A stretch of DNA of 64,000 nt from a bacterium. Lineage in GTDB: Bacteria > Bacteroidota > Bacteroidia > Flavobacteriales_D > Sanyastnellaceae. The stretch lies in contig JAPOHG010000002.1 in assembly GCA_029979565.1 (NCBI GenBank), positions 100,953-164,952 of the forward strand. Direction: 5' to 3'. The notes beneath the pieces were generated by a model. The model was given only the letters and a program-made list of their open reading frames with translations, made no database searches and had not been told where the DNA came from. Positions 19,519 to 37,205 of the stretch are shown here, piece by piece. Numbering within the stretch: the first letter of the stretch is position 1; every line of letters begins with the position of its first letter. Position numbers and translations under genes: made by a program.

Positions 19519-20370
19519 TTATTCGCAATCGAGCAATGAGATGATTTCGAAAGGGGGTGGTCCGGGAGGGTAGGTAAATCCTTCACGGACGATGTAATAC
19601 CAAATTTCGGACAAAGACTCTCCTTCGCTCAGGATTCCCGCAAACAGGTCCTCCGGAATCATGGTGGTTCTGAATTTTCCTTCTCCAATGGAGGTCAATT
19701 TCAATTCAGGGTACGCGTACACATCGGTTTCCGGGGCATATTCGTAACTCGTGAAGGCGTCGACTTTGCCCAGTAAGTAGATGTAGCAATCGTCATCGCC
19801 CATGTTTTGCAATCCTTCGTAAAGGACCTCTTTGGTGTTGTCATAGGTAATGGTCAAGAAATCATCGGGCTCCCGCAATTCGGGGAACACGCAGATGCGC
19901 GCAGCACACAGTTTTGGAATGATGTCCACGTGCATGTCTTCCGATTTAGCCTCAAAGTTGAATCCATCGACGGGGTATCCGTTTTTAAGCTTGGCCAGGC
20001 ACGAAATGCCGCGGGAGAACAGCTGTGGTCCGTCGACGCCGTAGTATTCCGTTGGAACAAAGGTCATGGAGTACAACTTGGGACCCACTTTGGTCATGAC
20101 TTGGTGATCTGCGCTGTTGTCCCAATCGCCATTGCCGGCTGCAGGACCGGAGGGGTTCCAAGTCCAGAGGTAAACCGTCGTATCCGGGAAAGCGTCCAGA
20201 ATGGCGGAGAGTCCGTTGTTTTGTATGCCATCTTCACTTTGGTTCATGTCGATGAACAACGTCAGCTCTGAATTGGCATCGGTCGGAGATGGAAGAACAT
20301 ACGCTTTTTGAGCATGGGCCGTTGCGTGCATGCAGGCAAAGGCGAGCAGGGAGAATAAGATCTTCTTCAT
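19519..20370 (-). CDS. SusE/F-position exported protein with two related beta modules
   Basis: I do not recognise a named family. A signal peptide (MKKILFSLLAFACMHATAHAQ) is followed by two copies of one module. The first has LTLFIDMN, VYLWTWNPSG and KLYSMTFVPTEYYG. The second has LTITYDNT, CYIYLLGKVD and KFRTTMIPEDLFAG. The same pattern occurs at the N-terminus of the T9SS amylase in this run (VTLYYNSAL, VYIHTGV, ISDYYQL). The operon position between SusD and the GH13 gene suggests a starch-binding accessory role like SusE/SusF, but that is inference. The start overlaps the preceding stop by one base. There is no lipobox, unlike SusE and SusF. Confidence 0.75.
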   Translation of the reverse strand: MKKILFSLLAFACMHATAHAQKAYVLPSPTDANSELTLFIDMNQSEDGIQNNGLSAILDAFPDTTVYLWTWNPSGPAAGNGDWDNSADHQVMTKVGPKLYSMTFVPTEYYGVDGPQLFSRGISCLAKLKNGYPVDGFNFEAKSEDMHVDIIPKLCAARICVFPELREPDDFLTITYDNTKEVLYEGLQNMGDDDCYIYLLGKVDAFTSYEYAPETDVYAYPELKLTSIGEGKFRTTMIPEDLFAGILSEGESLSEIWYYIVREGFTYPPGPPPFEIISLLDCE

Positions 20371-20870
20371 CAGTTCAGGCGATTGAATTCAAAGGTGTAA
20401 ATGTTGGTGGCTGTTCCGCCGCAATCCCGTCGGTACTCGATGGCGAGTTGTTGGTCAAACTCGCGAACCATGCCGCCGAGGTTGTAAACCAAGGTATCAG
20501 TGGCTGAGAAGAGCTCAAGGTAGGTGGGATAAAGGTCATCATCGAAACCCCACGTGCCGCCTTCGCCGAAATAATTCTTGCCCATCTCCAATGCAATGGA
20601 GTAGGTGCGGTCGGCGTTGAAGGTCAACTGGAGCGGCGTCACGGTACCGTCAATGTAGAAAGCGCTGAGGTCTCGGGTTTCCTTGACCGGGCTGTTCAAG
20701 TCCTGTTGGGTAAAGCTGTTGAGTTCCCAGGTGCCCGTCATCCCGGCAACCTTGTCGAACGGCTCACCCAATTCGCCAGTGGATTCGGGCTTGCACGCAT
20801 TGAAGGCCATGGCCACGACGGCCAATGTCAGCACGGAGCTCAATGCAGTGTATGTGGTGTTCTTGTTCAT
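20370..20870 (-). CDS. Small lipoprotein of the sus-type run (lipocalin/DUF5004-like)
   Basis: The N-terminus (ALSSVLTLAVVAMAFNACKPES) has a lipobox with Cys at about residue 26. The rest is about 140 aa with the phrase GTWELNSFTQQDL and a later GTWGFDDDLYPTYLELF, as in small lipocalin-like or DUF5004 proteins often found beside SusC/SusD pairs. It has no catalytic motif I can see. It lies 12 nt after susD and overlaps the next gene by one base. It likely sits at the outer membrane as part of the glycan-capture complex. Its function is unknown. Confidence 0.7.
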   Translation of the reverse strand: MNKNTTYTALSSVLTLAVVAMAFNACKPESTGELGEPFDKVAGMTGTWELNSFTQQDLNSPVKETRDLSAFYIDGTVTPLQLTFNADRTYSIALEMGKNYFGEGGTWGFDDDLYPTYLELFSATDTLVYNLGGMVREFDQQLAIEYRRDCGGTATNIYTFEFNRLN

Positions 20871-20882
20871 TCGGTAATTGGA

Positions 20883-22247
20883 TTAGAGGCAACCGCCTTC
20901 TTCGTTCAACTCAAAGCCTTGGACGGTGGACTCGGTATTGGAAAACTGCAAGGACATGCCCGGGCAATCCCATGCGGCATCGCGAATCGTGATGTCTTCG
21001 CCCATGGCGCCACGTCGCAGCAGCTGGTCGGTCCAGAGCCCTTCACAGGCGGTCTCTTTGCGGAATTCGTCGCGAGCAGCATCAATCACTTCTTGCGCAG
21101 TAGCCGATTCACTCAAGTCGTTGTTCCCAGCGCCAAAAGCGCGTGCACGGATGGCATTGATGTCGGCAATGGCCGTGGCCAAATCCGTGTTCAATTCCCC
21201 ATAGGCTTCCGCACGGATCAGGTGCATCAACGTCAAGTGTGCGAGCGGTACATTGAAGTATTCTTTTTCATTGAATCGGTTGATGAGCGCTCGTGTACCC
21301 GCCGTCAACCAGGCTGATCGTCCGTCACCGCCGCCCGAGAGGCTCATGAAGAAGGCGAAGTCTTCGCTGAAGGCCAATTGCGGACTGGGGTTGTTGTCCG
21401 AACGAAGGTTGTCGCGGAACCAAGAGCTGCGGAAGTCATTGGGCATGCTGACGATGCCGAACACCGTTTCGGTGTTGATGATATCGGTTTCAAAGCGATC
21501 GAGGTCTTCATCAAGCGTGTAGCGCCCGGAATTGATGACGTCGCTGGCGAAGTTCGCGGCTTCCGTGTAATTGCCCATGAGGAAGTGAACCTGGGCGAGG
21601 TAGGCACGAGCGGCGTCTTGTGTTGCGTAAACGCCGTTTTCCACCGGCAAGTAGTCGGCTGCGAAAGTCAAGTCTTCGACGATTTGAGTGTAGACGTCGC
21701 CGACGCTCGCACGTGGCAACGGATCCTGACTCGGTGCAATCCGCAAAGGCACGCCGGGATGGCTATTGTCTGCCGTATAGCCGTAGGGCCGGGCAAACAT
21801 TTTGACGGCTCCCCAATGGCAGATGGCCCGAATGAACCGGGCTTCGGCCTCCAAGCGCGTTCGTTCGGCTTCGTCGAGGTTTTCGACAATGTCGAAATTC
21901 TTGATGACCACATTCGATCGGTAAATCGCGTAGTAGAAATCCGTGTAAATGCCGCCATTGATGCCCGTGAAGAACGTCGTCTCGCGGTTGTAAACAGCCG
22001 TGAAATCCAAGCTGTTGTCGGGTTGCCCAAAATTGGGGCCGCGCAATTCATTGACAATCTGGACCCGTCCGCCGTAGAGGTTGGCGACGACATCGTAGTT
22101 GCTCACCAACAAGCGCTGGAGGTCTTCCGCGTCTTGGATGGCGTCTTCCGCAAGGATGACATCCCCGGGTTCAAATTCGAGCAAGTGGTCGCATGAGGTT
22201 AACCCAGCGGCCAATCCGGCAAAAAGAAGGAGGTGTTTGATGTTCAT
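20883..22247 (-). CDS. susD: SusD/RagB family starch-binding outer-membrane lipoprotein
   Basis: The lipobox is LAAGLTSCDHLLEFEPGD (Cys about residue 19). The SusD/RagB fold follows: AEDLQRLLVSNYDVVANLYGG, EAERTRLEAEARFIRAICHWGAVKMFARPYG, YLAQVHFLMGNYTEAANFASDVI, and the C-terminal LIRAEAYGELN ... INAIRARAFG with the usual TPR-like helices. It forms a lid over SusC and delivers maltooligosaccharides. The length of 454 aa is a little short but normal. It lies 9 nt after susC. Starch as ligand is inferred from the neighbouring amylases and maltose phosphorylase. Confidence 0.92.
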   Translation of the reverse strand: MNIKHLLLFAGLAAGLTSCDHLLEFEPGDVILAEDAIQDAEDLQRLLVSNYDVVANLYGGRVQIVNELRGPNFGQPDNSLDFTAVYNRETTFFTGINGGIYTDFYYAIYRSNVVIKNFDIVENLDEAERTRLEAEARFIRAICHWGAVKMFARPYGYTADNSHPGVPLRIAPSQDPLPRASVGDVYTQIVEDLTFAADYLPVENGVYATQDAARAYLAQVHFLMGNYTEAANFASDVINSGRYTLDEDLDRFETDIINTETVFGIVSMPNDFRSSWFRDNLRSDNNPSPQLAFSEDFAFFMSLSGGGDGRSAWLTAGTRALINRFNEKEYFNVPLAHLTLMHLIRAEAYGELNTDLATAIADINAIRARAFGAGNNDLSESATAQEVIDAARDEFRKETACEGLWTDQLLRRGAMGEDITIRDAAWDCPGMSLQFSNTESTVQGFELNEEGGCL

Positions 22248-22256
22248 GGTTGCCGA

Positions 22257-25200
22257 TTAGAAGTTGGTGGAAATGGAAAGGGTGAATGCGCGCTCTTGAG
22301 GCGGCGTCAGGTAGGTGACGTTCGGGCTCATGTTTCGATCCTGAGCGTTTTCAAAGTCACGAACGACCTCCGGATCCAAGCCTGGGAAGTTGGTGATGGT
22401 GAAGACGTTGGTCGCGTTCAGCGCGATTCGACAATTCTGCAAGCCGCTGTCTTTGCCGAGGGGCACGTTGTAGCCCAAGGTCACATTGCGTAGGCGTAAG
22501 TACGACGCATCGAAGATGAACAAGCTGGTGTTCCACCAAGGAAAGCCGGAAGGCAAGCTGTACGTGGTTTCATCCAATGTGAGACGTGGGTACGTGGCGA
22601 TGTCGCCTGGTTGACGCCAGCGGTCCAGTTTTTCGTCGCGCATATTCCAACCGGTCACAACGCCCAATTGGCGCTTTGCGGAGGAGTCGAAGATCTTGGC
22701 TCCGACGCTGAAGGTTGCCAAGGCGCTCAAGTCCCAATTGCCGTAGCGGAAGGTATTGTTGATGCCGCCAATAAGGTCTGGCAAGCCATCACCGACGTAC
22801 TTGCGGATGTCGTTGTTGTAGTCATACGTTTCGTTGCCTTCCAAGTCGAGGTAAACCGGGAGACCCGTTTCCGGATCTACATGGCTGTGTTCAACAAGGA
22901 AGAACGAGCCGACAGGACGGCCTACAATGACCCGGGAGTCATTGGTTCCGCCGCTCACGGCGTCTGGCGTGTAGTTTCCGATGTCCACCAACTCATTGTA
23001 GTTGCGTGCCACATTCAGGTCGGTGGTCCATTGGAACTTGCCAATGAGGTTGCGCGACTTGATGGAGAGTTCCACGCCGCGGTTCAAGATGGTGCCCACG
23101 TTGTCCCAGAAATTGGTGAAACCGGTGCTGGCCGGCGTGCTCACGTTCATCAATACATCGGTGGAATACTTGTGATAGAACGCCAACTCGGTGGTGATTC
23201 GGTCGTCCAACAGCCCCGCTTCCACACTAGCATCTACCGTGCGGGACGTTTCCCAGCGCAGGGTTGGATTTTCCGGTTGGATGGGGAAGAGGATGGAGTC
23301 AGCAGCGTACGTAATACCGTTGTTCGCTGCTGAGTAGGTTCCGAAACGTGCGTAATCAGGTAGCGCCGCGTTCCCTGTGTAACCAATGCTCGATCGTACT
23401 TTCAAGAAGCTGACGCGCTTGCTGTTGAACCAATCTTCGTCGGATACGACCCATCCGGCTGACAGCGATGGGAAGAAACCGTAACGGCTCTCGCGTCCGA
23501 AACGTGAACTGCCATCCACACGTGCCGTTGCTTGGAAGAAGTAGCGGTCTTTCAGCGTGTAATTTAAACGTCCGAAGTACGAAAGGAAGCTGTGTTGAGA
23601 GGGCAAGTTCACGGTCGTGTTGACGTTGGCCGCATCTTCGGACAAGGAGTCGTTTTCAAAGATGGGACCTTCTACTTGACCGTAGAAAAGGCTGTAGCCG
23701 TAGTTGTCGGTGCGTTGGAATTCACTGCCCACCAAGAAGTTGAACGCTTGTGTATCATCTAGCTCCCAGCGGTAGTCTGCAGTCGCACTGTAATTCCAGT
23801 TCAAGACGTAGTTCGCGTACCGATTGGCGCTGCCGAGTTCTGTTGTGATGGACAGGGCACCGGGATTGAAGACGTCTTCGCGCAAGTGGAGGTAGTCAAA
23901 TCCGCCGCTGACTTTCAAGTTCAAGTTGGCAACGGGCGAGTAGATCAATTGCGCGTTGCTGATGGAACGGTCTTCCGTCGTTTTCCATTTCTTCAATTCG
24001 CGAACGGCAACGGGATTTTTCGTCCCGCCCCACTCATCGAACCACAAGAAGTACTCACCGGCTTCGTGCTCGATGTTGCCGTTGGCATCGTAGACATCCT
24101 CGTCGTAGCGGACAGGATAATAGGGAAGGGCATTGGACATGGCATCACCTAAACCGCCTGACCACGCTGCATCGATGCGGTTGTTTTCGCCTCGGCTCAA
24201 TGAGGAACTGAGGAGGACTTTCACTTTGTTCGAAGGACTCCAGTCGAGGTTGACTCGGCCGCTGGTGCGGTCGTAGCTGTTCCCGAGGAGGTAGCTCTGG
24301 TTGTTGTCCTTCGATACCCCTGCGTACAAGTTGTAGCGCTCGCCGCCTTGTCGAACGCCAAAATTCACTGCATTCTTGTTGCCAACGCCAATGGTCTGGT
24401 CCACCCAATCGGTGTTTGTTTCCATAGCCCGGAGGTAGGCTTCACGGCGGGTAGCGGGGTCATCGGCCGCAGAAGTCATGTTCGGCAACCAAACGTATCC
24501 AGTCCCGCCGTCGTTTTCCCATGCTTCCTGGCGCAGAGCCAAGTACGTCTCCGTATCCATCATGTTCGGACGGGTAGCAGCGGTGCCGATGCCAGCGCGT
24601 GTGCTGAATTCGAATGACGTTCCCTTCTTTCCGCGCTTGGTGGTGATGAGGATGACGCCGTTGGCGCCACGGGATCCGTAGATGCCCGTCGCTGCGGCAT
24701 CCTTTAGAATTTCAACGGATTCGATATCATTTGGGTTGATGGCGGCGAGCGGGTTGTTGTTCAGAGCGCCGCTGTTACCACGCAAAAAGTACTCTTGGGT
24801 GATGGGGATGCCATCAACAACGTAGAGCGGGTCACCCGCAGCGGAAACCGATGCCACTCCGCGAACACGGATGAGGGATGGTGCTCCGGCCACGCCGGAT
24901 GATTGGCTTACTTGTACGCCTGCTGCTTGTCCTTGGAGGGCCGCTTCAAACGATGGGGTCTGGACCCCAGTGATTTGCTTCGAAGTGACTTTGACGATGC
25001 TGCCGGTGACCTCCTTTTTCCGTTGAACGCCATAGCCCACTACGACGACGTCCTCGATCAAAACAGCGTCGTCGGCGAGGGAAACGTTGAGGGTCATGTC
25101 TTCAGTTCCCATGGTCACCTCCTTGGTTTGGCTGATGTAGCCAATGTAGGAGAATTGGACCGTATGGGCGCCGGGTGATAGGCTCAAGACATACGCGCCA

Positions 25201-25358
25201 TCGGCGTCTGTGAATTGCCCATTGGTACCGTCGGCAACAACCGATGCTCCAGGCAGCGGATTGCCTTGGGCATCTGAGATCGTACCGCGCAGGGATTGCG
25301 CTTGCAGTGCGCAATACATGCCAAGGGTGGCGAACAGCGTAAGGGTGAATCTGGTCAT
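22257..25358 (-). CDS. susC: SusC/RagA family TonB-linked outer-membrane transporter
   Basis: The ATG at 25358 opens the signal peptide MTRFTLTLFATLGMYCALQAQ. The track's upstream extension to 25433 covers the promoter region and is not used. A carboxypeptidase-regulatory-like domain (RGTISDAQGNPLPGASVVADG) is followed by a TonB box/plug (DVVVVGYGVQRKKEVTGSIVKV; ILKDAAATGIYGSRGANGVILITTK). A long barrel ends at ERAFTLSISTNF. The length of 1033 aa is normal. With SusD it imports maltooligosaccharides across the outer membrane using TonB energy. The upstream region holds the 22-bp element shared with the regulator gene, and a TACCTTCG -7 box spaced 20 nt from the TTG inside that element. Confidence 0.93.
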   Translation of the reverse strand: MTRFTLTLFATLGMYCALQAQSLRGTISDAQGNPLPGASVVADGTNGQFTDADGAYVLSLSPGAHTVQFSYIGYISQTKEVTMGTEDMTLNVSLADDAVLIEDVVVVGYGVQRKKEVTGSIVKVTSKQITGVQTPSFEAALQGQAAGVQVSQSSGVAGAPSLIRVRGVASVSAAGDPLYVVDGIPITQEYFLRGNSGALNNNPLAAINPNDIESVEILKDAAATGIYGSRGANGVILITTKRGKKGTSFEFSTRAGIGTAATRPNMMDTETYLALRQEAWENDGGTGYVWLPNMTSAADDPATRREAYLRAMETNTDWVDQTIGVGNKNAVNFGVRQGGERYNLYAGVSKDNNQSYLLGNSYDRTSGRVNLDWSPSNKVKVLLSSSLSRGENNRIDAAWSGGLGDAMSNALPYYPVRYDEDVYDANGNIEHEAGEYFLWFDEWGGTKNPVAVRELKKWKTTEDRSISNAQLIYSPVANLNLKVSGGFDYLHLREDVFNPGALSITTELGSANRYANYVLNWNYSATADYRWELDDTQAFNFLVGSEFQRTDNYGYSLFYGQVEGPIFENDSLSEDAANVNTTVNLPSQHSFLSYFGRLNYTLKDRYFFQATARVDGSSRFGRESRYGFFPSLSAGWVVSDEDWFNSKRVSFLKVRSSIGYTGNAALPDYARFGTYSAANNGITYAADSILFPIQPENPTLRWETSRTVDASVEAGLLDDRITTELAFYHKYSTDVLMNVSTPASTGFTNFWDNVGTILNRGVELSIKSRNLIGKFQWTTDLNVARNYNELVDIGNYTPDAVSGGTNDSRVIVGRPVGSFFLVEHSHVDPETGLPVYLDLEGNETYDYNNDIRKYVGDGLPDLIGGINNTFRYGNWDLSALATFSVGAKIFDSSAKRQLGVVTGWNMRDEKLDRWRQPGDIATYPRLTLDETTYSLPSGFPWWNTSLFIFDASYLRLRNVTLGYNVPLGKDSGLQNCRIALNATNVFTITNFPGLDPEVVRDFENAQDRNMSPNVTYLTPPQERAFTLSISTNF

Positions 25359-25377: not shown

Positions 25378-25385
25378 CGAAGGTA
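25378..25385 (-). promoter_or_regulatory. Probable -7 box of susC
   Basis: On the minus strand TACCTTCG lies 19 nt before the susC ATG. A TTG lies 20 nt further upstream, matching the -33/-7 spacing reported for Bacteroidota. That TTG is part of the shared 22-bp element, so a bound protein would touch the promoter. Confidence 0.5.
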
Positions 25386-25396
25386 AGGTCTAGTAG

Positions 25397-25418
25397 GTGT
25401 ATTTTCAACACGAAGTGT
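25397..25418 (-). promoter_or_regulatory. Shared 22-bp element, susC copy (putative operator)
   Basis: Read toward susC the sequence is ACACT, two variable bases, GTGTTGAAA, A, TACAC. The copy before the Nudix regulator gene matches at 19 of 22 positions. Gaps to the start codons are 38 nt here and 37 nt there. It contains GTGT/ACAC inverted half-sites (GTGTTGAAAATACAC). Confidence 0.65.
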
Positions 25419-25429
25419 CTTGCGACTTG

Positions 25430-28252
25430 TCAACGGCTATTGGAAAGCACCACGCGGGCGGTGAATAGTTGCGTTTGGGAAAGTACCCGTACGGTGTACA
25501 CGCCTTGCGATAAGGAGTTGTTAACGAATTGAATAACGTTTTCCTGTTGCTGCACCGTCGCGCTGATTCCAGGTGTTACATCCCGGCCGTTCAGATCAAA
25601 AATTTGAAGCGAGGTCATGTCCACCTGCTCGGGGAATTCAATGGCAAAGGTTCCTGCCGCGGGATTGGGAAACGCCACGGCATCGAACCGACTAAGGGTG
25701 GTCTCAGGGATAGTGGAAGGGAAGTTGACCGGTTGATCGACGTACACGTGGTATTCGCCTGGAGCGAATGACATGAATGCACTCACATCCGTCACTTCCA
25801 TGGCTTCGCCTGTGAAGTAGTCGTACCAGGTTCCTGTATGCTGGAATCCGGGGATCATGCTCAACTCGCTGACACGGAAATTCGCGACCACCACGGCGTC
25901 CATGGTGTTGCCGTTGAGGTGCAAGCGCTTGCCATAGCCTCCCACATCCCAGTTGTAATTGGTACCTTGGAAGGGGTCGGGGTAGTCCATTTTGAGCTGG
26001 CACAGACCGGCAATGACTTCGTGGATGCGGTATCGATTGGGGTTGTCACGGTAATCCCAACGCACCGGTTTAGCTGTGGTCCGGCAATCCTCGCTGATGG
26101 TCACGCCATCGCTGCATGTATTGATGCTGTAATCGTACCCGAGCTCTTCGAATTGCCAGAGCATCTTCGGTCCGGGCAATAGGATGTTGAAGCATTGAAT
26201 CGCTTCTTGGCGCGCCAGGGCCGTATTGAGATCGGTTACTTGGTACGATCCTTCGCCGTTGCCGTATTGCAGGGCTTTGTACATCAACCGCTCTTCGTCA
26301 TGGCTTTCAGGGTAGGAGATGACCCCGGGATTGGACATGCTTTGGTTTTGGTAGCTCGCCCAGCCAAAATCAGAAGGGTACCCCATGGAGGCCTCGTTGT
26401 AATCGTGCGTCACATTGGCCCACACCATGAACTCGTCGTTGACCAGGGTTTGGTTCTCGGACAAATCCACCCAGTGTTCCAGGATCATGTAGATGTGGGA
26501 TTCGTCCTGCCAGAGGTGGTTGGCGTATTCATTGAGCAAGTTGATGCGGGCTTGGTCATAGCCCCAAACGTTGCCAGGAGTTTGGGTCATGCCTTTGGAA
26601 AAGTCGAGGCGGTAGCCGTCAATGTGGTATTCGTCTACCCAGTACTTCAATGCTCGTTTCATGAAATACTTTGTGGCTGGACTGTCGTGGTTCCAATCGA
26701 AGAACCACGTCTCCGGACTGGGCGATATTTCGTTGAACCAGGGGTTGTTCTCCGCAGGTTGAAAGGAAGCAGCATTCCAGTACATTTTCAAAAATGGATT
26801 CGGGTAATCGGCGTGGTTGAGCACGACGTCAAGAAGCACAGCAATCCCGCGCTCGTGGCAGGCATTGACCAATGCTTTAAACGCCGATTTGTCACCGTAC
26901 GCTTTGTCCAAGGCCAAATAAAATGTGGGGTTGTATCCCCAGCTGTCGTTGCCATTGAATTCATTGACAGGCATGAATTCGATTGCGTTGATGCCCAAGC
27001 GATCGAGGTAATCGAGGGTGTCGAGGATGGTCTGGTAGTTGCGCTCGTCCGTGAAATCACGCACCAGCAATTCGTAAATGACCAATGATGATTTGGCGGG
27101 TCGCTCAAATTCCTGATCGGACCAATCAAAGGCAGGCGCCCCGGGTTGAAAGACGGAGACCGGCGTGTTTTCCGTCAGCATATTGGGGAACGCCGGCATA
27201 TTGGGGTACGTCGCCTCGGGAATCCATTGGTCATTCCACGGGTCGAGCACCACTTCCGTGTAGGGATCGGCCACGCGCATATCGTCCGGCATGATGTGGT
27301 AGTGGAAGCGGTATTCGGTTCCGGCTTCGAGGCCTTCAATTTCGATCCAGTGCTTGTTGCCATCGGGCGTTTGGGTCATGAGGTAATCGAAGCTCAATTG
27401 CCAATCATTGAAGTCACCGACGACAAAAACGAATTCTTTGCCCGGTGCGTGAAGCTGCAAAAAGGTACTCGTGCTTGATGGATAATGAATGCCGTCTTCG
27501 GACCCCGCGGGTGGCCATCCGGTGATGGGGGATTCAGGCAAAACGGCAATGCTCGCTTCATCCGAAGCGGAGCCTGCATCGGTCGTTCCCACCAAGGAGA
27601 CGTCGAATTGCCCGGCATCGTCGGCTTGAAAATCGTACGAAAGGGACGTGCCCGTCACGGTGGTGACAACCTCCCCATTGATTTCCAAACTGAGCTCGCA
27701 TGATTCACTCGCTTGTCCGAGAATGGTGTAGGTGTCGCCCAAGTCGAGTACGGCGTATCCGTTTTCTGGGGTTTGCAATGAAGTGCTGAACGAACCGCTG
27801 CTGACTTCGTAGAAAATATCGGATCCATCGGCATTTCGGCCTACCAATGAGCCGGTGCTGTTTCGGAAGACCATGGCCAGGCTTTCGACGGTTTCCCCTT
27901 CGTCGAGTTGGTAATAATCGCTGATGGTCAACCCATTGAAATCAAAGGTGTGGATGCCGTTGCCTTCAGGATCCATGAGGGCGAGCGGGTCTGCCGTTCC
28001 CCACGCAGTCTGAACATTTTGCCAATCGCTCGGTCCGCTCGAATTGCTCGTGATGACCCCGGTGTGGATATAGACAGGAATGACCCCTTGCAATTCACCG
28101 TTCCCCAATGCACTGTTGTAATAAAGAGTGACTTGGTCGTCAACGGTTGGGAAAGCGGGTTCGGTCCAGACCACTTGACTTTGAAGCACACCCGGAATCA
28201 GTATGCCCAAGAAAATGAAAATGCAGCAATGGAATCGGTGAAAAGTATTCAT
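25430..28252 (-). CDS. Secreted GH13 alpha-amylase with T9SS sorting domain
   Basis: The ATG at 28252 overlaps the cotH-like stop (ATGA) and opens a signal peptide (CCIFIFLGILIPGVLQSQ). The track's extension to 28600 lies inside cotH in another frame. Order: an N-terminal module (VDDQVTLYYNS ... DGSDIFYEV), an Ig-like stretch, a CBM48-like module (FVFVVGDFNDW), and the GH13 barrel. Catalytic regions are VLLDVVLNHAD, GYRLDFSKGM (nucleophile), YMILEHWVD (acid/base) and YPESHDEERL. The C-terminus is a T9SS sorting domain (VAFPNPAAGTFAIEF ... ARVVLSNSR). The protein is 940 aa. It is probably the surface endo-acting amylase that starts starch breakdown ahead of SusC/SusD. Confidence 0.88.
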   Translation of the reverse strand: MNTFHRFHCCIFIFLGILIPGVLQSQVVWTEPAFPTVDDQVTLYYNSALGNGELQGVIPVYIHTGVITSNSSGPSDWQNVQTAWGTADPLALMDPEGNGIHTFDFNGLTISDYYQLDEGETVESLAMVFRNSTGSLVGRNADGSDIFYEVSSGSFSTSLQTPENGYAVLDLGDTYTILGQASESCELSLEINGEVVTTVTGTSLSYDFQADDAGQFDVSLVGTTDAGSASDEASIAVLPESPITGWPPAGSEDGIHYPSSTSTFLQLHAPGKEFVFVVGDFNDWQLSFDYLMTQTPDGNKHWIEIEGLEAGTEYRFHYHIMPDDMRVADPYTEVVLDPWNDQWIPEATYPNMPAFPNMLTENTPVSVFQPGAPAFDWSDQEFERPAKSSLVIYELLVRDFTDERNYQTILDTLDYLDRLGINAIEFMPVNEFNGNDSWGYNPTFYLALDKAYGDKSAFKALVNACHERGIAVLLDVVLNHADYPNPFLKMYWNAASFQPAENNPWFNEISPSPETWFFDWNHDSPATKYFMKRALKYWVDEYHIDGYRLDFSKGMTQTPGNVWGYDQARINLLNEYANHLWQDESHIYMILEHWVDLSENQTLVNDEFMVWANVTHDYNEASMGYPSDFGWASYQNQSMSNPGVISYPESHDEERLMYKALQYGNGEGSYQVTDLNTALARQEAIQCFNILLPGPKMLWQFEELGYDYSINTCSDGVTISEDCRTTAKPVRWDYRDNPNRYRIHEVIAGLCQLKMDYPDPFQGTNYNWDVGGYGKRLHLNGNTMDAVVVANFRVSELSMIPGFQHTGTWYDYFTGEAMEVTDVSAFMSFAPGEYHVYVDQPVNFPSTIPETTLSRFDAVAFPNPAAGTFAIEFPEQVDMTSLQIFDLNGRDVTPGISATVQQQENVIQFVNNSLSQGVYTVRVLSQTQLFTARVVLSNSR

Positions 28253-30534
28253 CGCAAAATAATTTTTTGAGTCGTCAAGCCTCTTTTGACTTCTGAAGTG
28301 AGCAGGTAAATACCTTTTGGATAACCGTTGATTGAAATGGACGAACCGGCAGACTCCTTGACGAGGTGTCCGTTTAGGTTGTGCAATGATGCACGTGTTC
28401 CTTGTGGAAGGGCGACCGTGCACGGTTGATTGCACACAGTTGGCAATGGTGTGGATGCGCCGTGGCCATTGACAGCCAATGTCGTTCCGTTGGCGGCATT
28501 GGGTGTCGGCGGGTTGGAGGAATTGGGGTTGAACCACACCCAGTTTGGCGCACCATCGGTCGAACGGCCGAGGCTGAAATCGCCGACGGCATCGTTCCAA
28601 TCGATGGCATCCACGGTACGCCAGGCACCATCCTCCTTGGTGGAGAGGTACACCTCATCCTCCGACCCGGACAGGGTGAAATTGGCGTGCACTGGGCCGG
28701 CATCGGGGTTGTCGTCGCACCAGAGGAGCAAATGCTGACCCGGTTCCAAGGTGACGCTCGGCAGCGGCCAACGCCAAGGTTCCATCAGCCGATTGCTGAG
28801 GTAGAATCCATTGCAGTTGAACGGAGCAGTTCCTGCGTTGAACAGTTCCACCCAATCGCCAGTGTTGCCGTTTTCATCGGTCGCGAACCCATTGTTGATG
28901 GGCATAACCTCATTGATCCGAAGTGGGGAGTTGGCCATGGTGTTCCATACCCGCGCCAAGGTGCAAGGCGAGTGCTGGACCGCGCCCGATGGGTCGGTTG
29001 CCGAAGCCCTCCAGAAAACTTCTTCTGCACCCTCAAGCGGTATGGCAGCAGCCCAGCCATAGCCGTGTAGGTTTCCTCCGGCGGGATCGAGGATAACAGT
29101 CTCCACGTTGCCGTCCTGTTCAACTTCGGCTTCAACCATCCATCCTGTGGACGCTGTCAGCTCAGGTGCCCAGCATTGGATGTGCAATGTGTCATTGCGT
29201 ACCGGCCCTTCTGCCCAGCACTGGACGATCGGGCTGGAACTTTCAGGCAGAGGATCCGACTGAACATCGGCCCAAAAAATCCGTGAGTTAGCGTAGTCCA
29301 ATAAGGAATGCGCCACGTGGCTGCCCCAAGCTTCCGTGATGGAATTTTCAAAATCATCCGCATCGAACCCGTAGCTCAACGGGTAGTAGGTGTCCTCATC
29401 GATGGCTTGACTCATCAAATCGACCAACCACGTTCCCCGCGTCTCAACCCATTCGGCCGTGTAATAGGTATCCATCCACCAATGGATGTACCACGTGAGT
29501 CGATCTCGGTAGGCCTCGACATCAAGCAATCGAGTGTACAGGACTCGGTCGTTTTCGAAGTTCCAGCTGTAGATGTCGCGGTCCGTCCATTCACCAAACC
29601 ACTGAATGCCAGCGGTGTTGTCCATGTCATAAGGGATGTACATCAGCCGGCCGTCGGTGGTGCGCTCGTACAAGTAAAAGTTGTTCTTGTTCCCAATGTA
29701 ATTGTCCCAATGGCCGAAGAGGATTTCACCAGCCGCTGTTTTGAGGTAGGCATCGACATCGAAAATGGCTTCCAGCGCACAGGGCAACTCGTCCATTGGC
29801 GTGTTGTTAAGGACATCAATGAACTCGGCTAAGCTGCTGTAGTCGTCATTCAGATTGTTGGTTTTCAGTTCGTAAACGCGCTGGTCTGACCAACTTGGGG
29901 TGAACTTGTAGGCTTCGGGGTTATTGCTGATGAAGGCCAGGTTTGCGGGGTAGGTGCACTTCCACAGGTTGCCGTGGGCATGGTCAAATCGCTTTTCCAG
30001 CCATTCGCCATCGATGTGTTCGGTGTTGGAGTACAACCCGTAGTATTCGCCATTGATAAAGAGCTTCACGTGCGTGCTTCTCGAGACCGGCACACCGGCA
30101 TCACGCAAGCACTCCCAAGCAAGTCGGGCACGCATGGCACTGGGGTCATTGTGTTCACCGTTGAGGTTCATTTTTTTCAACCCCTCCCAAGATTGGTCTT
30201 CTTCGAAAGCATTGAAAGACACCTTGTACGATTTCTTCGGCGCGCCGCGGGAGGTGTTCCCGCGTAGGCGAAATCCTACGTTTTCGACAGTATCTGTTCC
30301 CAATGGACTGATGAACACGAATGTTGCGGGATGTTCAATGTTGGAATACCAATTTTCCTGTTGCAGGATCCAGCCCATTTGATCGCACGTCACATGCACC
30401 TCTGGAAGCCCTTCGCTTTGGTAAGCAGTACCATCCAATGGATGCCAATTGACACCCACTTCCTGAGCCGTTGCAACAGTAAAGCTGCACAGGACCATCA
30501 ACACCTCAACCCACCTTGGCTTGTGTTCAATCAT
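28249..30534 (-). CDS. Secreted CotH-like kinase with lamin-tail and T9SS sorting domains
   Basis: The ATG at 30534 starts MIEHKPRWVEVLMVLCSFTVATAQ, a signal peptide. The track's earlier start lies inside the regulator gene. The CotH-kinase region spans about residues 40-430: VGFRLRGNTSRGAPKKSYKVSF, MNLNGEHNDPSAMRARLAWE, LFINGEYYGLYSNTEHID and YIPYDMDNTAGIQW, which includes the metal-binding DMDN. A lamin-tail domain follows (LRINEVMPINNGFATDENGN ... DWVELFNAGT), then a short T9SS sorting tail (KGIYLLTSEVKRGLTTQKIILR). CotH proteins are atypical protein kinases in spore coats and also occur as exported proteins. The role in a starch locus is unknown. It overlaps the regulator by 8 nt and the amylase by 4 nt. 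Confidence 0.82.
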   Translation of the reverse strand: MIEHKPRWVEVLMVLCSFTVATAQEVGVNWHPLDGTAYQSEGLPEVHVTCDQMGWILQQENWYSNIEHPATFVFISPLGTDTVENVGFRLRGNTSRGAPKKSYKVSFNAFEEDQSWEGLKKMNLNGEHNDPSAMRARLAWECLRDAGVPVSRSTHVKLFINGEYYGLYSNTEHIDGEWLEKRFDHAHGNLWKCTYPANLAFISNNPEAYKFTPSWSDQRVYELKTNNLNDDYSSLAEFIDVLNNTPMDELPCALEAIFDVDAYLKTAAGEILFGHWDNYIGNKNNFYLYERTTDGRLMYIPYDMDNTAGIQWFGEWTDRDIYSWNFENDRVLYTRLLDVEAYRDRLTWYIHWWMDTYYTAEWVETRGTWLVDLMSQAIDEDTYYPLSYGFDADDFENSITEAWGSHVAHSLLDYANSRIFWADVQSDPLPESSSPIVQCWAEGPVRNDTLHIQCWAPELTASTGWMVEAEVEQDGNVETVILDPAGGNLHGYGWAAAIPLEGAEEVFWRASATDPSGAVQHSPCTLARVWNTMANSPLRINEVMPINNGFATDENGNTGDWVELFNAGTAPFNCNGFYLSNRLMEPWRWPLPSVTLEPGQHLLLWCDDNPDAGPVHANFTLSGSEDEVYLSTKEDGAWRTVDAIDWNDAVGDFSLGRSTDGAPNWVWFNPNSSNPPTPNAANGTTLAVNGHGASTPLPTVCNQPCTVALPQGTRASLHNLNGHLVKESAGSSISINGYPKGIYLLTSEVKRGLTTQKIILR

Positions 30535-31240
30535 GTTCAATCTGATCAGGATTGAAACTGAACAGCTGGGCAGGTTTGTGCATGACACCCTGTTGCTTCT
30601 CATCAAGTGGCACCACGTGGCTCATCTTTTTGACGTTTTTCCGGAAATTCCGCTTGTCAAATTTTTTGTCCAAAACGGTTTCATAGAGCGCTTGCAGCTG
30701 ACTCAACGTGAACTTCTTCGGGAGCAATTCAAAACTGATGTGATGGCTTTCCAATTGCGTTTGGAGCGCCTCAATGGCTCCATTCAAAATGGCATTATGA
30801 TCAAAAGCGAGCGGTCCAACTTCATTGACGTCCACCCAGTTCACCCCTCCAGCGAAAGAAGCGGGTTGAGGATCGTGATCATGCAAGCTCACCAGCCCTA
30901 AGTAACCAACGGTGATGACCCGTTGATCAGGTTGGGTGCGCACGGAACGAAGCCATGCTCGGTCTTTATGTTCTTTCACCCTGTTGGGATCGCCATAGGC
31001 ATGGAACTGTTTCAAGTACACTCCGTTGACTTGTGTGAGTTCAAACAACACCCGTTCTGCAGCTTCATCCAGTCCTTCTTCGATGAGGATGAGGTCCCCC
31101 GGAAGTTGGGACATGGGTTGCCCGTTTTCGTGGACATAGGTGTCTTTTTTTTGATTGATTAAGAGCACCTTGAGCCCGTCATCATCGTATCCAAAAAGTA
31201 CACAATCAACAGAAAGGTGGAGGGACTCATTGGGTTGCAT
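30527..31240 (-). CDS. NrtR-type transcriptional regulator (degenerate Nudix plus winged helix)
   Basis: The N-terminal 140 residues are a Nudix fold (LSVDCVLFGYDDDGLKVLLINQ; LPGDLILIEEGLDEAAERV). The Nudix box should read RExxEExG at its end but reads ERVLFELTQVNG, so catalytic acids are missing. The C-terminal 90 residues (FTLSQLQALYETVLDKKFDKRNFRKNV) match the winged-helix part of NrtR-like regulators. In Bacteroidota such proteins often control sugar-use genes and sense a sugar or a derivative. The gene heads the starch run and is divergent from pfkA. The shared 22-bp element lies 37 nt upstream, and a TACTTTTG -7 box ends 5 nt before the ATG. Autoregulation and control of both runs are inferred. 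Confidence 0.85.
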   Translation of the reverse strand: MQPNESLHLSVDCVLFGYDDDGLKVLLINQKKDTYVHENGQPMSQLPGDLILIEEGLDEAAERVLFELTQVNGVYLKQFHAYGDPNRVKEHKDRAWLRSVRTQPDQRVITVGYLGLVSLHDHDPQPASFAGGVNWVDVNEVGPLAFDHNAILNGAIEALQTQLESHHISFELLPKKFTLSQLQALYETVLDKKFDKRNFRKNVKKMSHVVPLDEKQQGVMHKPAQLFSFNPDQIEHD

Positions 31241-31245
31241 AGTGT

Positions 31246-31253
31246 CAAAAGTA
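31246..31253 (-). promoter_or_regulatory. -7 promoter box of the Nudix regulator, near-leaderless
   Basis: The minus strand reads TACTTTTG-ACACT-ATG, a full match to TAnnTTTG with 5 nt to the start codon. Confidence 0.55.
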
Positions 31254-31277
31254 CAATAAAGCCTTTCACGAATAAAA

Positions 31278-31299
31278 GTGTAATTTCAACACTTAGTGT
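31278..31299 (-). promoter_or_regulatory. Shared 22-bp element, regulator/pfkA copy (putative operator)
   Basis: Read toward the regulator gene the sequence is ACACT, two variable bases, GTGTTGAAA, T, TACAC, as at susC. The core AAGTGT-N7-ACACTT is a perfect inverted repeat (31276-31294). The site lies in the regulator/pfkA divergent region, so one bound protein could affect both directions. Confidence 0.7.
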
Positions 31300-31321: not shown

Positions 31322-31329
31322 TAACTTCG
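31322..31329 (+). promoter_or_regulatory. Possible -7 box of the pfkA run
   Basis: TAACTTCG lies 44 nt before the pfkA ATG and 22 nt after the shared 22-bp element. The same octamer precedes the gldFG gene. This would leave a leader of about 40 nt. Confidence 0.4.
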
Positions 31330-31373: not shown

Positions 31374-32345
31374 ATGAAGAAAATCGCAGTTTTAACGTCT
31401 GGAGGTGATGCTCCCGGAATGAATGCGGCCATTCGCGCTGTAGTGCGAACGGCGGTATACCATGGATGTGAAGCAGTGGGTGTGTTTCAGGGATATCAAG
31501 GATTGATTGATGGGGACTTCAAGCGACTGCATGTTCGTTCCGTAGCGAAGATCTTGGGACGAGGCGGAACCATTTTAAAATCAGCGCGTTGTGAGGCTTT
31601 TCGAAAAGAAGAAGTTCGGCGAAAAGCGCATCAAGCGCTTCTAGAAAATGACGTGGATGCGTTGGTGGTGATTGGAGGAAACGGCACGTTCACAGGAGCC
31701 ATGTTGTTGGCCCGGGAGACTGGCTTTCCAATCATCGGCTTACCCGGAACCATTGATAATGACTTGTCCGGAACGGATTTTACCATAGGTTTCGATACCG
31801 CAACAAACACCGTGGTCGAGGCCGTTGACAAAATCCGTGACACTGCCGATAGCCACAACCGATTGTTTTTCGTTGAAGTCATGGGACGGGACAGCGGGTT
31901 CATAGCCTTGAACGCGGGCATTGCCACCGGTGCGGTAGCCGTCATGACACCTGAGACGGGGTTGTCCATCCAAGACTTGGTCGACATCCTGAACCTGGGT
32001 CAAGCTTCGAATAAGACATCAAGCATCGTCATTGTAGCGGAAGGTCACCCGGAAGGAGGGGCCTTTGAAATCGCTACGAAGGTTCACGCCATTGATAACA
32101 AGTACGAAACACGCGTCACGGTGCTGGGACACCTGCAACGCGGCGGAGACCCGAGTTGTGCGGATCGCGTGCTGGCTTCCCGCATGGGCGTCGCCGCAGT
32201 TGAAGGATTGCTCTCCGGTAAGAAGACTGTGATGGCCGGGGTCGTGAATGATCAGCTGGTGTATTATCCGTTTGAAGAAGCCATTCAGAATAAAACGGCC
32301 ACGCTCGAAGACGAGGTCCGTATAGCCAAAATACTTTCCATCTAA
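31374..32345 (+). CDS. pfkA: ATP-dependent 6-phosphofructokinase
   Basis: The ATG at 31374 gives the standard PfkA start MKKIAVLTSGGDAPGMNAAIR. The track start at 31296 would include the operator region. The enzyme phosphorylates fructose-6-phosphate, the committed step of glycolysis. The substrate loop PGTIDNDLSGTDFTIGFDTA has the catalytic Asp and the Gly that marks ATP-type enzymes. At the ATP/Mg loop the sequence is IGGNGTF with Asn at codon 103, where E. coli has Asp103. The length of 323 aa is typical. It heads a run with gapA, a sugar kinase, pgmB and the maltose phosphorylase, which ties glycolytic flux to maltose supply. Confidence 0.93.
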   Translation: MKKIAVLTSGGDAPGMNAAIRAVVRTAVYHGCEAVGVFQGYQGLIDGDFKRLHVRSVAKILGRGGTILKSARCEAFRKEEVRRKAHQALLENDVDALVVIGGNGTFTGAMLLARETGFPIIGLPGTIDNDLSGTDFTIGFDTATNTVVEAVDKIRDTADSHNRLFFVEVMGRDSGFIALNAGIATGAVAVMTPETGLSIQDLVDILNLGQASNKTSSIVIVAEGHPEGGAFEIATKVHAIDNKYETRVTVLGHLQRGGDPSCADRVLASRMGVAAVEGLLSGKKTVMAGVVNDQLVYYPFEEAIQNKTATLEDEVRIAKILSI

Positions 32346-32354
32346 CCGAATTGA

Positions 32355-33350
<996 letters not shown>

Positions 33351-33373: not shown

Positions 33374-34234
33374 TTGAAAATCTTAATAGCAGATAGTGGT
33401 TCCACCAAATGCGACTGGATGGTGATTGATGAAGAGGGGAGTGCCCTGTCTGAATTTCACACCATGGGATTCAATCCCTATTTCCATGACGCCGGCGTGG
33501 TCGAGTCGAAAATGCGTGAATCCGAAGAAGCCATGGCCCTGGCTGAGCAGGTGTCCAAGGTATACTTTTATGGTGCCGGAAGCAGTTCGGAGGCGTTATG
33601 CGCCATCATACGGGAAGGGTTGGAGCGCGTTTTTTCCGCTGCAGATGTTCACGTCGGTCACGATTTGGATGGTGCAGCTTACAGCACATACGCCGGGGAT
33701 CCAGCCATAACGTGCATCATTGGTACCGGTTCGAACTCCTGCTATTTTGACGGAACTGTTACCTCGGAAAAGGTGCCAGCATTGGCTTACATACTCGGTG
33801 ACGAAGCCAGTGGGTCTTGGTTCGGTAAGCGTCTCCTAGCACTTCATTTGTACCACAAACTTGACCCCACAGTAGATGAAGACTTTGTGAGCACTTTTGG
33901 TTTTAGCAAAGACGACATTGTTAATCGGGTGTACCAAGAGCCGAATGCCAATGTTTTTCTGGCATCTTTTATGACCTTCATCGGACGTCACCAAGAGGTA
34001 CCTCAAATCATCTCCTTGCTCGAAGAAGGTTTCCAGGCCTTCATTGACGTGCACGTTAAGTGTTACGACAATTACCAAGACGTTCCCGTTCACTTCGTAG
34101 GTTCCGTTGCTTATCACTTCCAGCCAGTGCTTCGCCACGTCTGCGAGCGTGAGGGCATCGAGGTGGGTCACATCATCAAACGTCCGATCGACGGATTGGC
34201 GGAATACCACGTGAAATACATCTTAAACGCCTGA
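33374..34234 (+). CDS. BadF/BadG-type sugar kinase (N-acetylglucosamine kinase/glucokinase-like)
   Basis: The frame opens with a TTG (33374): MKILIADSGSTKCDWMVIDEEG. No ATG exists nearby upstream, so TTG is probably the true start. ASKHA-fold motifs are DSGSTKCDW (phosphate 1), IIGTGSNSCYFDG (phosphate 2) and LGDEASGSWFGKR. The length of 286 aa fits the small N-acetylglucosamine kinase-like proteins of Bacteroidota. Maltose phosphorylase releases free glucose, and no other hexokinase is seen in this run, so the natural substrate may be glucose. That is inference. The gene ends 3 nt before pgmB. Confidence 0.8.
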   Translation: MKILIADSGSTKCDWMVIDEEGSALSEFHTMGFNPYFHDAGVVESKMRESEEAMALAEQVSKVYFYGAGSSSEALCAIIREGLERVFSAADVHVGHDLDGAAYSTYAGDPAITCIIGTGSNSCYFDGTVTSEKVPALAYILGDEASGSWFGKRLLALHLYHKLDPTVDEDFVSTFGFSKDDIVNRVYQEPNANVFLASFMTFIGRHQEVPQIISLLEEGFQAFIDVHVKCYDNYQDVPVHFVGSVAYHFQPVLRHVCEREGIEVGHIIKRPIDGLAEYHVKYILNA

Positions 34235-34237
34235 GCG

Positions 34238-34891
34238 ATGAAGGCGATACGCGCATGCATATTCGACTTGGATGGTGTGATTGTGGATACCGCTTCGCAC
34301 CACTTTGTTGCATGGCGGCGACTCGCTGACGAGCTCGGTATCCCTTTCTCAGCTGAGGACAATGAGGCTCTCAAAGGGGTGTCGAGGGTAGACAGCTTGG
34401 AGTATATCTTGAATAAGGGTGGATTGATTTTGGATGCCGGGACCAAGGTGCGTCTCATGGATCGTAAGAACACGCATTATTTGGAATTGGCGGGAGCAAC
34501 CACTCCAGCGGACGCATTGCCCGGTGTCGTGAAGTTGATTGATGAACTCAAAGAGGAAGGAATAAAAGTAGCCCTCGGCTCTTCCTCCAAAAACGCGGAA
34601 ATGATTCTTACGCGGTTGAGTTTAATTGACCGCTTCGACGTGCTGGTTGATGGCAACCACATCACCCTTTCGAAGCCTGATCCTGAGGTGTTTGTCATGG
34701 GTGCGAAAGCCTTGGAACTAGCTCCCGAGCATTGCCTCGTTTTCGAAGATGCTCAATCCGGTATCGATGCGGCAAATGCAGGTGGATTTTCAGTAATTGG
34801 CATTGGCCGCGCCGATGCACTCAAGGGATCGGCTGCCGTCATTCCTGGATTCGATGGAATGACTTGGGAGGGGATTAAGGCGTTATTGTAA
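34238..34891 (+). CDS. pgmB: Beta-phosphoglucomutase
   Basis: A HAD-superfamily enzyme with a cap domain. Motif I is FDLDGVIVDTASHHFVAWRRL, with the nucleophile and acid/base aspartates (DLD). Motif II is LGSSSKN, the Lys is in TLSKPDPEVF, and motif IV is VFEDAQSGIDAA. The cap phrase LKGVSRVDSLEYIL is typical of beta-PGM. It converts beta-glucose-1-phosphate, the product of inverting maltose phosphorylase, to glucose-6-phosphate. The length of 217 aa is normal. It sits between the sugar kinase (3-nt gap) and the phosphorylase gene (16-nt gap). Confidence 0.93.
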   Translation: MKAIRACIFDLDGVIVDTASHHFVAWRRLADELGIPFSAEDNEALKGVSRVDSLEYILNKGGLILDAGTKVRLMDRKNTHYLELAGATTPADALPGVVKLIDELKEEGIKVALGSSSKNAEMILTRLSLIDRFDVLVDGNHITLSKPDPEVFVMGAKALELAPEHCLVFEDAQSGIDAANAGGFSVIGIGRADALKGSAAVIPGFDGMTWEGIKALL

Positions 34892-34907: not shown

Positions 34908-37205
34908 ATGACAGGTACCATAGACCACTGGGAATTGGGGCTCAAGGCTTGGGATTCGGCTATGGTACAAGGGTTTGAGTCCATCCTGTCCATTGGGAAC
35001 GGAAGGATTGGACAGCGCGCCAATTTTGAAGAATCATATACAGGGCAATCCTTGCAAGGATCCTACTTGGCTGGCGTGTACTACCCGGATAAAACGAAAG
35101 TGGGGTGGTGGAAGAACGGGTACCCGGAGTATTTCGCTAAGGTCCTGAATTCTACAAATTGGATTGGTATAGAAGTCAAAATCGATGGTGAATCATTGGA
35201 TTTGGCTATGGCAAGGTCGGTAGACGAGTTCAACTGGGAGTTGGACATGAGGGAAGGGGTGTTGAAACGCTCATTCACTTGCATGATGCAAAATGGAGCC
35301 ACGGTTCGCGTCATTGCTGAGCGGTTTTGCTCGATGCATAATCCTGTATTGGGCTGCCTGCGTTACACTGTCCATACTGAAGGACATCGGGTTGAGCTGC
35401 TTCCATACCTCGATGCAGGGGTGACCAACGCAGACTCCAATTGGAATGATGCGTTTTGGTCCATCCATGATGTGAAACACCAAGCGCCAGGACGAGCTTA
35501 TGTCCGAACAGAAACGAATAAAACCCATTTCGGAGCGGCTTTTGCCATGACTGCCCTTGCGCACGTAACGGACGGTACAGCGATACGCAGGCTTGAACAA
35601 TCTGCCGCACAAGCCGATGAAGTTCGGGTAGGCATCGGTTTTGAGGCCATGCTCACCAATGGACAAGCCATTACCCTGGAAAAATACGTGGGCATTTGTA
35701 CCACACTTCAGCACGCTGAGGGGGATCTGGTTGCTGCGGCGTCAGAACACAGCGAATCGGCTGCCTCCATTGGCTGGGCATCGCTGGTGAATCGTCACGG
35801 CGAGGCTTGGGAGCGCATTTGGAAGCAAGCGGACATCGAAATTGAGGGAGATGTGGCCTCCCAACAAGCGATTCGGTTCAACATATTCCATCTCAACCAG
35901 ACGTACCGCGGCGATGATGCCCGTTTGAACATTGGTCCGAAAGGATTCACTGGTGAGAAATACGGAGGCGCGAGCTACTGGGACACCGAAGCGTATTGCA
36001 TCCCTTTCTTCCTCGCGGGTCATCCCGAAAAGGTGGCGCGGCAATTGCTGGTTTACCGCTACAACCATTTGCAAAAAGCCATCGAAAACGCACAAAAATT
36101 AGGGTTTTCAGACGGTGCTGCGCTCTATCCCATGGTGACGATGAATGGGGAAGAATGCCACAACGAATGGGAGATCACCTTCGAGGAAATTCACCGAAAT
36201 GGCGCCATGTCGTATGCCATTTGGAATTACGTCAATTACACGGGCGATCAAAACTACCTCAGAAACTGCGGGTTCCCTGTCTTGCTCGGTGTCGCTCGCT
36301 TTTGGCAGCAACGGGTGCAATGGTCGGAAGCCAAGAAGGCCTATGTTATTCTCGGCGTGACCGGTCCCAATGAATACGAGAACAACGTCAATAACAATTG
36401 GTACACCAATTACCTCGCAGCGTGGTGCATGCGGTATGCATTGCAAGTTGCGAATTGGCTCAAATCCGAGCACGTGGATGATTGGGCCCAGCTAGCAGCG
36501 AAATACGACATCGACGAGGATGCTACGTTTGCAGCGTGGACTGAAATTTCAGAGAAAATCTACTTGCCTCAGTTGGAAGGCACCGGGGTGTTCCTGCAAC
36601 AGGATGGCTTCATGGATAAGGAGCAACTTTCGGTGGAGGATTTGGCGGATGAACAGCGGCCTATTAACCAGAAGTGGAGTTGGGATCGAATATTGCGCTC
36701 GATCTTCATTAAACAGGCCGACGTACTGCAAGGGTTGTACTTTTTCTGGGACCACTTCGACCTGAGCACGCACCAAGCCAATTACGATTTCTATGAGCCC
36801 AAAACGGTCCATGAATCGAGCCTCTCGCCTTGTGTTCATTCCATCATCGCTTCCCGATTGGACCGCATGGACGATGCGTATAAGCACTACCTCAGGACGT
36901 CGCGCCTCGATCTAGATGACTACAACAAGGAGGTCCATGAAGGGCTCCATATTACTTCAATGGCTGGAACGTGGTTGTCTGTAGTTGAGGGCTTTGGAGG
37001 GTTCAAGGTCAGGGATGGAGTGCCCTGTTTCAACGGAAAGCTTCCCAAAGCTTGGACAAGCCTCCGGTTCAAAATCAACTTCCGAAATCGTTTGATGGAC
37101 GTGCTTGTAACCAAGGAAGGGACCGAAGTTTCTTTGCTCCAAGGGGATTCCATCGAGGTTGAAGTCAATGGCTCGGCGATTCAGTTGAATCCACCAAGCC
37201 ACTGA
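34908..37205 (+). CDS. mapA: GH65 maltose phosphorylase
   Basis: A GH65 protein of 765 aa. The N-terminal beta-sandwich starts at about residue 12 (AWDSAMVQGFESILSIGNGRIGQRANFEE). The (alpha/alpha)6 barrel contains YWDTEAYCIPFFLAGHPEKV and the catalytic acid in GPNEYENNVNNNWYTN (Glu at codon 489, matching Glu487 of the Lactobacillus brevis enzyme). The later phrase TVHESSLSPCVHSIIAS is also a family block. The enzyme splits maltose with phosphate into beta-glucose-1-phosphate and glucose in the cytoplasm. Trehalose or kojibiose phosphorylase are alternatives in GH65, but the starch context favours maltose. It is the last gene of the pfkA run. Confidence 0.9.
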   Translation: MTGTIDHWELGLKAWDSAMVQGFESILSIGNGRIGQRANFEESYTGQSLQGSYLAGVYYPDKTKVGWWKNGYPEYFAKVLNSTNWIGIEVKIDGESLDLAMARSVDEFNWELDMREGVLKRSFTCMMQNGATVRVIAERFCSMHNPVLGCLRYTVHTEGHRVELLPYLDAGVTNADSNWNDAFWSIHDVKHQAPGRAYVRTETNKTHFGAAFAMTALAHVTDGTAIRRLEQSAAQADEVRVGIGFEAMLTNGQAITLEKYVGICTTLQHAEGDLVAAASEHSESAASIGWASLVNRHGEAWERIWKQADIEIEGDVASQQAIRFNIFHLNQTYRGDDARLNIGPKGFTGEKYGGASYWDTEAYCIPFFLAGHPEKVARQLLVYRYNHLQKAIENAQKLGFSDGAALYPMVTMNGEECHNEWEITFEEIHRNGAMSYAIWNYVNYTGDQNYLRNCGFPVLLGVARFWQQRVQWSEAKKAYVILGVTGPNEYENNVNNNWYTNYLAAWCMRYALQVANWLKSEHVDDWAQLAAKYDIDEDATFAAWTEISEKIYLPQLEGTGVFLQQDGFMDKEQLSVEDLADEQRPINQKWSWDRILRSIFIKQADVLQGLYFFWDHFDLSTHQANYDFYEPKTVHESSLSPCVHSIIASRLDRMDDAYKHYLRTSRLDLDDYNKEVHEGLHITSMAGTWLSVVEGFGGFKVRDGVPCFNGKLPKAWTSLRFKINFRNRLMDVLVTKEGTEVSLLQGDSIEVEVNGSAIQLNPPSH

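Follow-up and report, generated by a model that had tools for sequence, protein, structure and literature searches.

NrtR-family proteins have hitherto been known for local control, of genes for NAD, arabinose or xylose metabolism. One of them, AraR (BT0354) of Bacteroides thetaiotaomicron, has been crystallised on the operator GCAAAAGTGTTACTTTTACACCCATGC, which has the form GTGT-N7-ACAC (PMC4666351), and XylR (BT0791) of Bacteroides is likewise an NrtR-family sugar regulator of Bacteroidota, with a xylose regulon (PMC3878776, PMC4666351). A literature search for Nudix/NrtR regulators of starch or glycolysis in Bacteroidota returned AraR and XylR alone, and no global central-carbon regulator described for Flavobacteriales was found in the literature searched. 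Two other systems are relevant by function: SusR, for which binding to long-spaced direct repeats is predicted and which activates with starch and maltose (PMC3878776); and Cra, which represses glycolytic and activates gluconeogenic genes, as is also predicted for PckR (PMC4052901).

The 64,000-nucleotide stretch of DNA analysed here (the window) carries a gene for an NrtR-family regulator, P0001, with starch genes downstream and a divergent run headed by pfkA on its other side:

31276–31294, no strand: predicted operator O1, the perfect palindrome AAGTGT-N7-ACACTT between the nrtR-like gene and divergent pfkA.
25395–25413, no strand: predicted operator O2 before susC, TCGTGT-TGAAAAT-ACACCT read on the minus strand.
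30527–31240, minus: NrtR-family regulator P0001, 237 aa (Nudix domain and NrtR/AraR winged helix-turn-helix; Nudix box degenerate).
31246–31253, minus: probable −7 box of the regulator gene, TACTTTTG, 5 nt before the ATG.
31322–31329, plus: probable −7 box of pfkA, TAACTTCG, 27 nt from O1.
25378–25385, minus: probable −7 box of susC, TACCTTCG, 9 nt from O2.
31374–32345, plus: pfkA, 6-phosphofructokinase, heading the divergent run (PF00365).
32367–33350, plus: gap, glyceraldehyde-3-phosphate dehydrogenase (domain match).
33374–34234, plus: BadF/BadG-type sugar-kinase-like ATPase (from a Pfam match that is weak and short of the cut-off).
34238–34891, plus: HAD hydrolase, probable beta-phosphoglucomutase (named from the HAD family and the GH65 partner).
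34908–37205, plus: GH65 family enzyme, probable maltose phosphorylase (substrate presumed).
22257–25358, minus: susC, TonB-dependent receptor, putative target of O2 (domain match).
20883–22247, minus: susD (domain match).
19519–20870, minus: two small genes after susD, in a SusE/F-like position (DUF4961-like, below cut-off; DUF5004).
17101–19503, minus: alpha-amylase family protein with AMPK1_CBM (domain match).
25430–28600, minus: alpha-amylase family protein with a T9SS sorting tail (start codon uncertain).
28249–30606, minus: CotH-kinase and LTD protein, downstream of the regulator (start uncertain).

The first-pass annotation of this DNA had pointed to a near-identical pair of 22-mers at 31278–31299 and 25397–25418. 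Their places are correct and they agree at 19 of 22 positions: the minus strand reads ACACTAAGTGTTGAAATTACAC at 31299–31278, before the regulator gene, and ACACTTCGTGTTGAAAATACAC at 25418–25397, before susC. The gaps to the start codons are also as it gave them (37 nt to the regulator ATG at 31240, 38 nt to the susC ATG at 25358), and the perfect inverted repeat AAGTGT-N7-ACACTT is present at 31276–31294, abutting the pfkA promoter region. With up to three mismatches the 22-mer matches these two copies alone in the window, where 0.01 are expected; a scan of the whole assembly (1.96 Mb, about 80% complete by estimate), which had been proposed as a check, returned the same two alone, with none for the reversed control. 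The shared orientation and near-equal distance to the ATG are as described but incidental: orientation says little because the core is palindromic, and the equal distances are coincidental, since the gap to the −7 box differs between the two genes and the gap to the regulator ATG varies in relatives. The 5′ ACACT that had been counted as part of the element occurs in both copies but is unconserved in relatives, except for a frequent CT. What matters functionally is the palindromic core GTGT-N7-ACAC, perfect in O2 at 25397–25411 and found in relatives mostly within WAGTGT-N7-ACACTW.

Elsewhere in the same genome, the strict palindrome with two mismatches occurs at 34 places versus 60 for the control, which is uninformative. 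The bare core occurs at 16 places versus 15, so that most of these are due to chance, and three sites are retained: O1, O2 and a core outside the window (G000:C22:51902–51916; L153, L242) before the gene of a CBM48/CBM20 starch-binding protein. The latter lies 3 nt after a TACTTTTG box and overlaps the predicted transcription start. A further perfect core (G000:C10:3543–3557; L149) is intergenic to divergent GH3 and GH2 genes.

By its domain matches, P0001 is an NrtR-family member in which a Nudix-like domain is joined to a winged helix: Pfam reports NUDIX (PF00293, 24.6 bits, cut-off 21.1), NrtR_WHD (PF21906, 87.3 bits, cut-off 27) and AraR_C, and the closest solved structure is AraR 5bs6 (E 3e-33). 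All 47 aligned orthologs share D178, K179, R180, N181, R183 and K184 (AraR numbering), every major-groove residue of AraR being kept. Among the AraR DNA contacts K179, R180, N181, K184, K204 and R205, the first four are unchanged, and the wing residues K204 and R205 are uniformly replaced by His and Lys, respectively. The Nudix catalytic signature is impaired, with AraR positions 48, 63 and 67 occupied by D/N, mainly V, and L in the orthologs. Of the arabinose contacts, R34 is replaced by Gln in 45 of the 47, and R86 and H131 align as kept, the former in a gap-dependent alignment that the pairwise comparison of P0001 with AraR places differently. Relative to AraR, the Nudix domain of the orthologs also contains a basic insertion of ~15 residues; together with the change at R34, this makes a sugar-like ligand other than arabinose likely. 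In-frame stops are reported inside some matches to regulator homologs (G007:C9, G012:C114, G094:C382, G089:C47, G284:C143 and G285:C24).

A comparison of relatives that keep this locus, also suggested beforehand, places a perfect core no more than 350 nt upstream of the regulator gene in 43 of 47 ortholog loci, one of the remaining four (L064) beginning just upstream of the gene, where it could not show a core. From base composition alone, the chance of a core in a few hundred bases is below 1%. The eight half-site bases of these 43 sites are fixed by the selection criterion; the W and A/T flanking each half-site, which were unselected, are enriched, and the centre drifts. The core also precedes the regulator ortholog in other families of the order, and its distance from the regulator ATG among relatives ranges from ~0 to 210 nt. 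No such site accompanies some distant orthologs (L228, L235–L238) or the order-level paralogs (~43% identity) beside other susC genes (L240, L241), and no upstream core was found for the named Runella and other distant homologs (26–38% identity). The gene order, with nrtR and divergent pfkA-gap-kinase-HAD-GH65 and with amylase and susCD (often CotH) opposite, is common to most of the family. The CotH-kinase/LTD protein (28249–30606), encoded between regulator and amylase, is retained in many relatives. The susC site persists in nine genus loci among those listed and, outside the genus, in the closest genus and some others; several genus members lack it. Of 19 genus members, 14 have the starch-binding-protein site.

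In a flavobacterial map of transcription starts, the −7 consensus is TAnnTTTG at −12 to −5 (PMC9723704); the susC and pfkA boxes (TAnnTTCG) differ from it by one base. O1 is 22 nt from the regulator −7 box, whereas O2 is only 9 nt from that of susC and so spans the −33 region and spacer. With the probable regulator box only 5 nt before the ATG (31241–31253), an almost leaderless mRNA is expected. In the genus and nearest genus, 26–28 nt separate the operator from the pfkA −7 box in all readable cases, and in most the operator lies directly beside a (T)TTG-like −33 sequence of pfkA; this makes plausible the earlier suggestion that the glycolytic run may be part of the circuit. The corresponding gap to the regulator −7 box is usually 21–26 nt (one of 32; 16 in the nearest genus), and the susC operator is 9 nt from its box in most genus members where a box is recognisable.

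Relatives with larger genomes carry up to 16 exact sites. In twenty relatives the exact 19-mer occurs at up to 16 sites per genome, versus 0–5 for the reversed control. Across 14 other genera with larger regulons, 43 genomes together have 268 exact sites, compared with 59 control matches, this group having been picked after the counts were known (330 versus 106 for the whole family). For the strict palindrome, the own genus exceeds the control only slightly (21 versus 11), so the regulon of the present genus rests on the three individually conserved sites. G047, a single-contig genome, has 16 sites, of which 15 lie between genes; the genes they precede include pgi, an alpha-amylase with a SusG-like C-terminus, a GlgE-like protein, pckA, icd, gdhA and an IPExxxVDY-pyk operon. 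Recurrent targets are pckA (7 genomes), the amylase family (6), the pyk operon (6), gdhA (5), pgi (4), pdhA (4) and pdhB (4), counts that are not fully independent because some genomes are closely related. NAD biosynthesis genes are not among these recurrent targets, some site neighbours, such as dnaA, are probably not targets, and no operator site was found at pckA in the own genus.

With −7 boxes chosen by pattern, and several sites lacking one, the distances from operator end to box fall into two classes. The near class comprises susC (9 nt), pgi (4–6), amylase (6) and the glgE-like gene (8); at pyk and the starch-binding protein gene the operator comes just past the box. This placement suggests repression. 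The far class comprises pdhA (32–37 nt), pdhB (47), icd (59), gdhA (76 or 88) and pckA (100–101 or 110–111, with an outlier at 167), the pckA positions being about one helical turn apart between genera; by position and by analogy with Cra and PckR, these would suit activation.

The regulator has been lost naturally in one sister species. G048, which is 99% complete and belongs to the genus of G047 and G049, has no regulator match at E 1e-10 and no exact operator site, versus 16 and 15 in the two congeners (L284, L285, L286); its pckA retains the TAATTTTG box without the operator that both congeners have. The seven genomes of the family that lack a regulator match, most of them incomplete, hold 2 sites in total versus 5 control matches.

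The proposal that the adjacent NrtR-family regulator has its operator in this element is well supported by the element's rarity and conservation, by the AraR-like geometry and contact residues, and by the absence of sites where the regulator is missing; we give it a probability of about 0.9, with binding, the effector and the direction of regulation inferred. A regulator dimer would bind GTGT-N7-ACAC through its winged helix, as AraR does. O2, on the −33/spacer region of susC, and the third site, over the transcription start of the starch-binding protein gene, would both mediate repression, as their positions imply. O1 would overlap the −33 region of the regulator itself, giving autorepression, and also abut the −33 box of the divergent pfkA-gap-kinase-HAD-GH65 run, so that a single site may couple both promoters. 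Binding of a starch- or maltose-derived sugar or sugar-phosphate to the degenerate Nudix domain would release the regulator from DNA, upon which starch uptake, maltose phosphorolysis and glycolysis would rise together.

That the 22-mer might instead be a promoter element for a dedicated sigma factor, the alternative raised in the first-pass annotation, was suggested by two copies in the same written orientation and at similar distances from the ATG of co-functional genes. This now appears very improbable: the core is palindromic, relatives place it anywhere from ~0 to 210 nt from the regulator ATG, the gap to the −7 box differs by target with the element upstream or downstream of it, ordinary TAnnTTTG-like boxes lie close to most sites, and genomes without the regulator lack sites. 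Even less credit is due to chance similarity, or to a recently duplicated stretch of promoter DNA that plays no part in regulation, to which the variable centre TTGAAA, shared by the two copies besides the palindrome, might point. Against the 0.01 matches expected, the persistence of half-sites across the family while centre and flanks drift, and the excess of exact sites over control in other genera, this explanation is in practice refuted by the conservation data.

A less remote, though still unlikely, alternative concerns which protein binds. A second NrtR-family paralog (G000:C38:6141–6788; L088), convergent with metK, matches NrtR_WHD/AraR_C and carries an identical recognition helix, DKRNFRK, so that binding by either protein is possible, and the paralog, or both, might be the main occupant of the operator. 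However, the element immediately precedes the starch-locus regulator gene and tracks that ortholog through the order; five genomes with a single NrtR-family gene at E≤1e-10 (G047, G045, G014, G015 and G044) nevertheless have 7–16 sites, and two that hold only a more distant homolog of 43% identity (G028 and G029) have 0–1. The starch-locus regulator stays the preferred binder.

Since, in relatives with larger genomes, the regulator's ortholog retains this operator before genes such as pgi, pyk, pdhA/B, pckA, gdhA, icd and those of amylases, the local circuit of this small-genome genus is apparently contracted from a central-carbon regulon. More tentatively, and at somewhat less than even odds, the orthologs could constitute a global carbon-flow switch of Flavobacteriales built on the NrtR fold, which would repress starch and glycolytic genes (pgi, pyk, amylases, susC) from promoter-overlapping operators and activate pckA, gdhA, icd and pdh from upstream ones, with a glycolytic sugar phosphate as the signal. 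In marine bacteria the sites tie starch uptake to glycolysis, to gluconeogenesis and to the assimilation of nitrogen, and the explicit target list and natural loss case make the hypothesis testable.

Compared with known systems, P0001 is closest to AraR (PDB 5bs6, 5dd4, 5ddg and 5deq), with which it shares the Nudix/winged-helix architecture, the operator form, identical major-groove contact residues and sites both before susC-type and sugar genes and before the operon holding the regulator gene. It differs in having Gln, Leu and His at R34, F49 and wing position K204, in a locus without arabinose genes (its neighbours being sus, amylase, pfkA, gap and GH65) and in a predicted regulon of starch, maltose and glycolysis. 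The ADP-ribose-responsive NrtR of NAD metabolism from Shewanella oneidensis (3gz5) has the same fold and family (NrtR_WHD) but lower similarity (2e-13 versus 3e-33 for AraR), and the P0001 locus lacks NAD genes. SusR of B. thetaiotaomicron controls a starch susC operon but is a membrane protein of an unrelated family. Cra/FruR, PckR, HexR and CceR are global regulators whose regulons combine glycolytic genes with pckA; they are LacI- or RpiR-family proteins of Proteobacteria, so the resemblance is one of function only, and Pfam found no LacI-type DNA- or sugar-binding domains in P0001, only the Nudix and NrtR/AraR domains. What is new here is reach: judged from their predicted sites, these NrtR-family orthologs look like global central-carbon regulators with a Cra-like logic.
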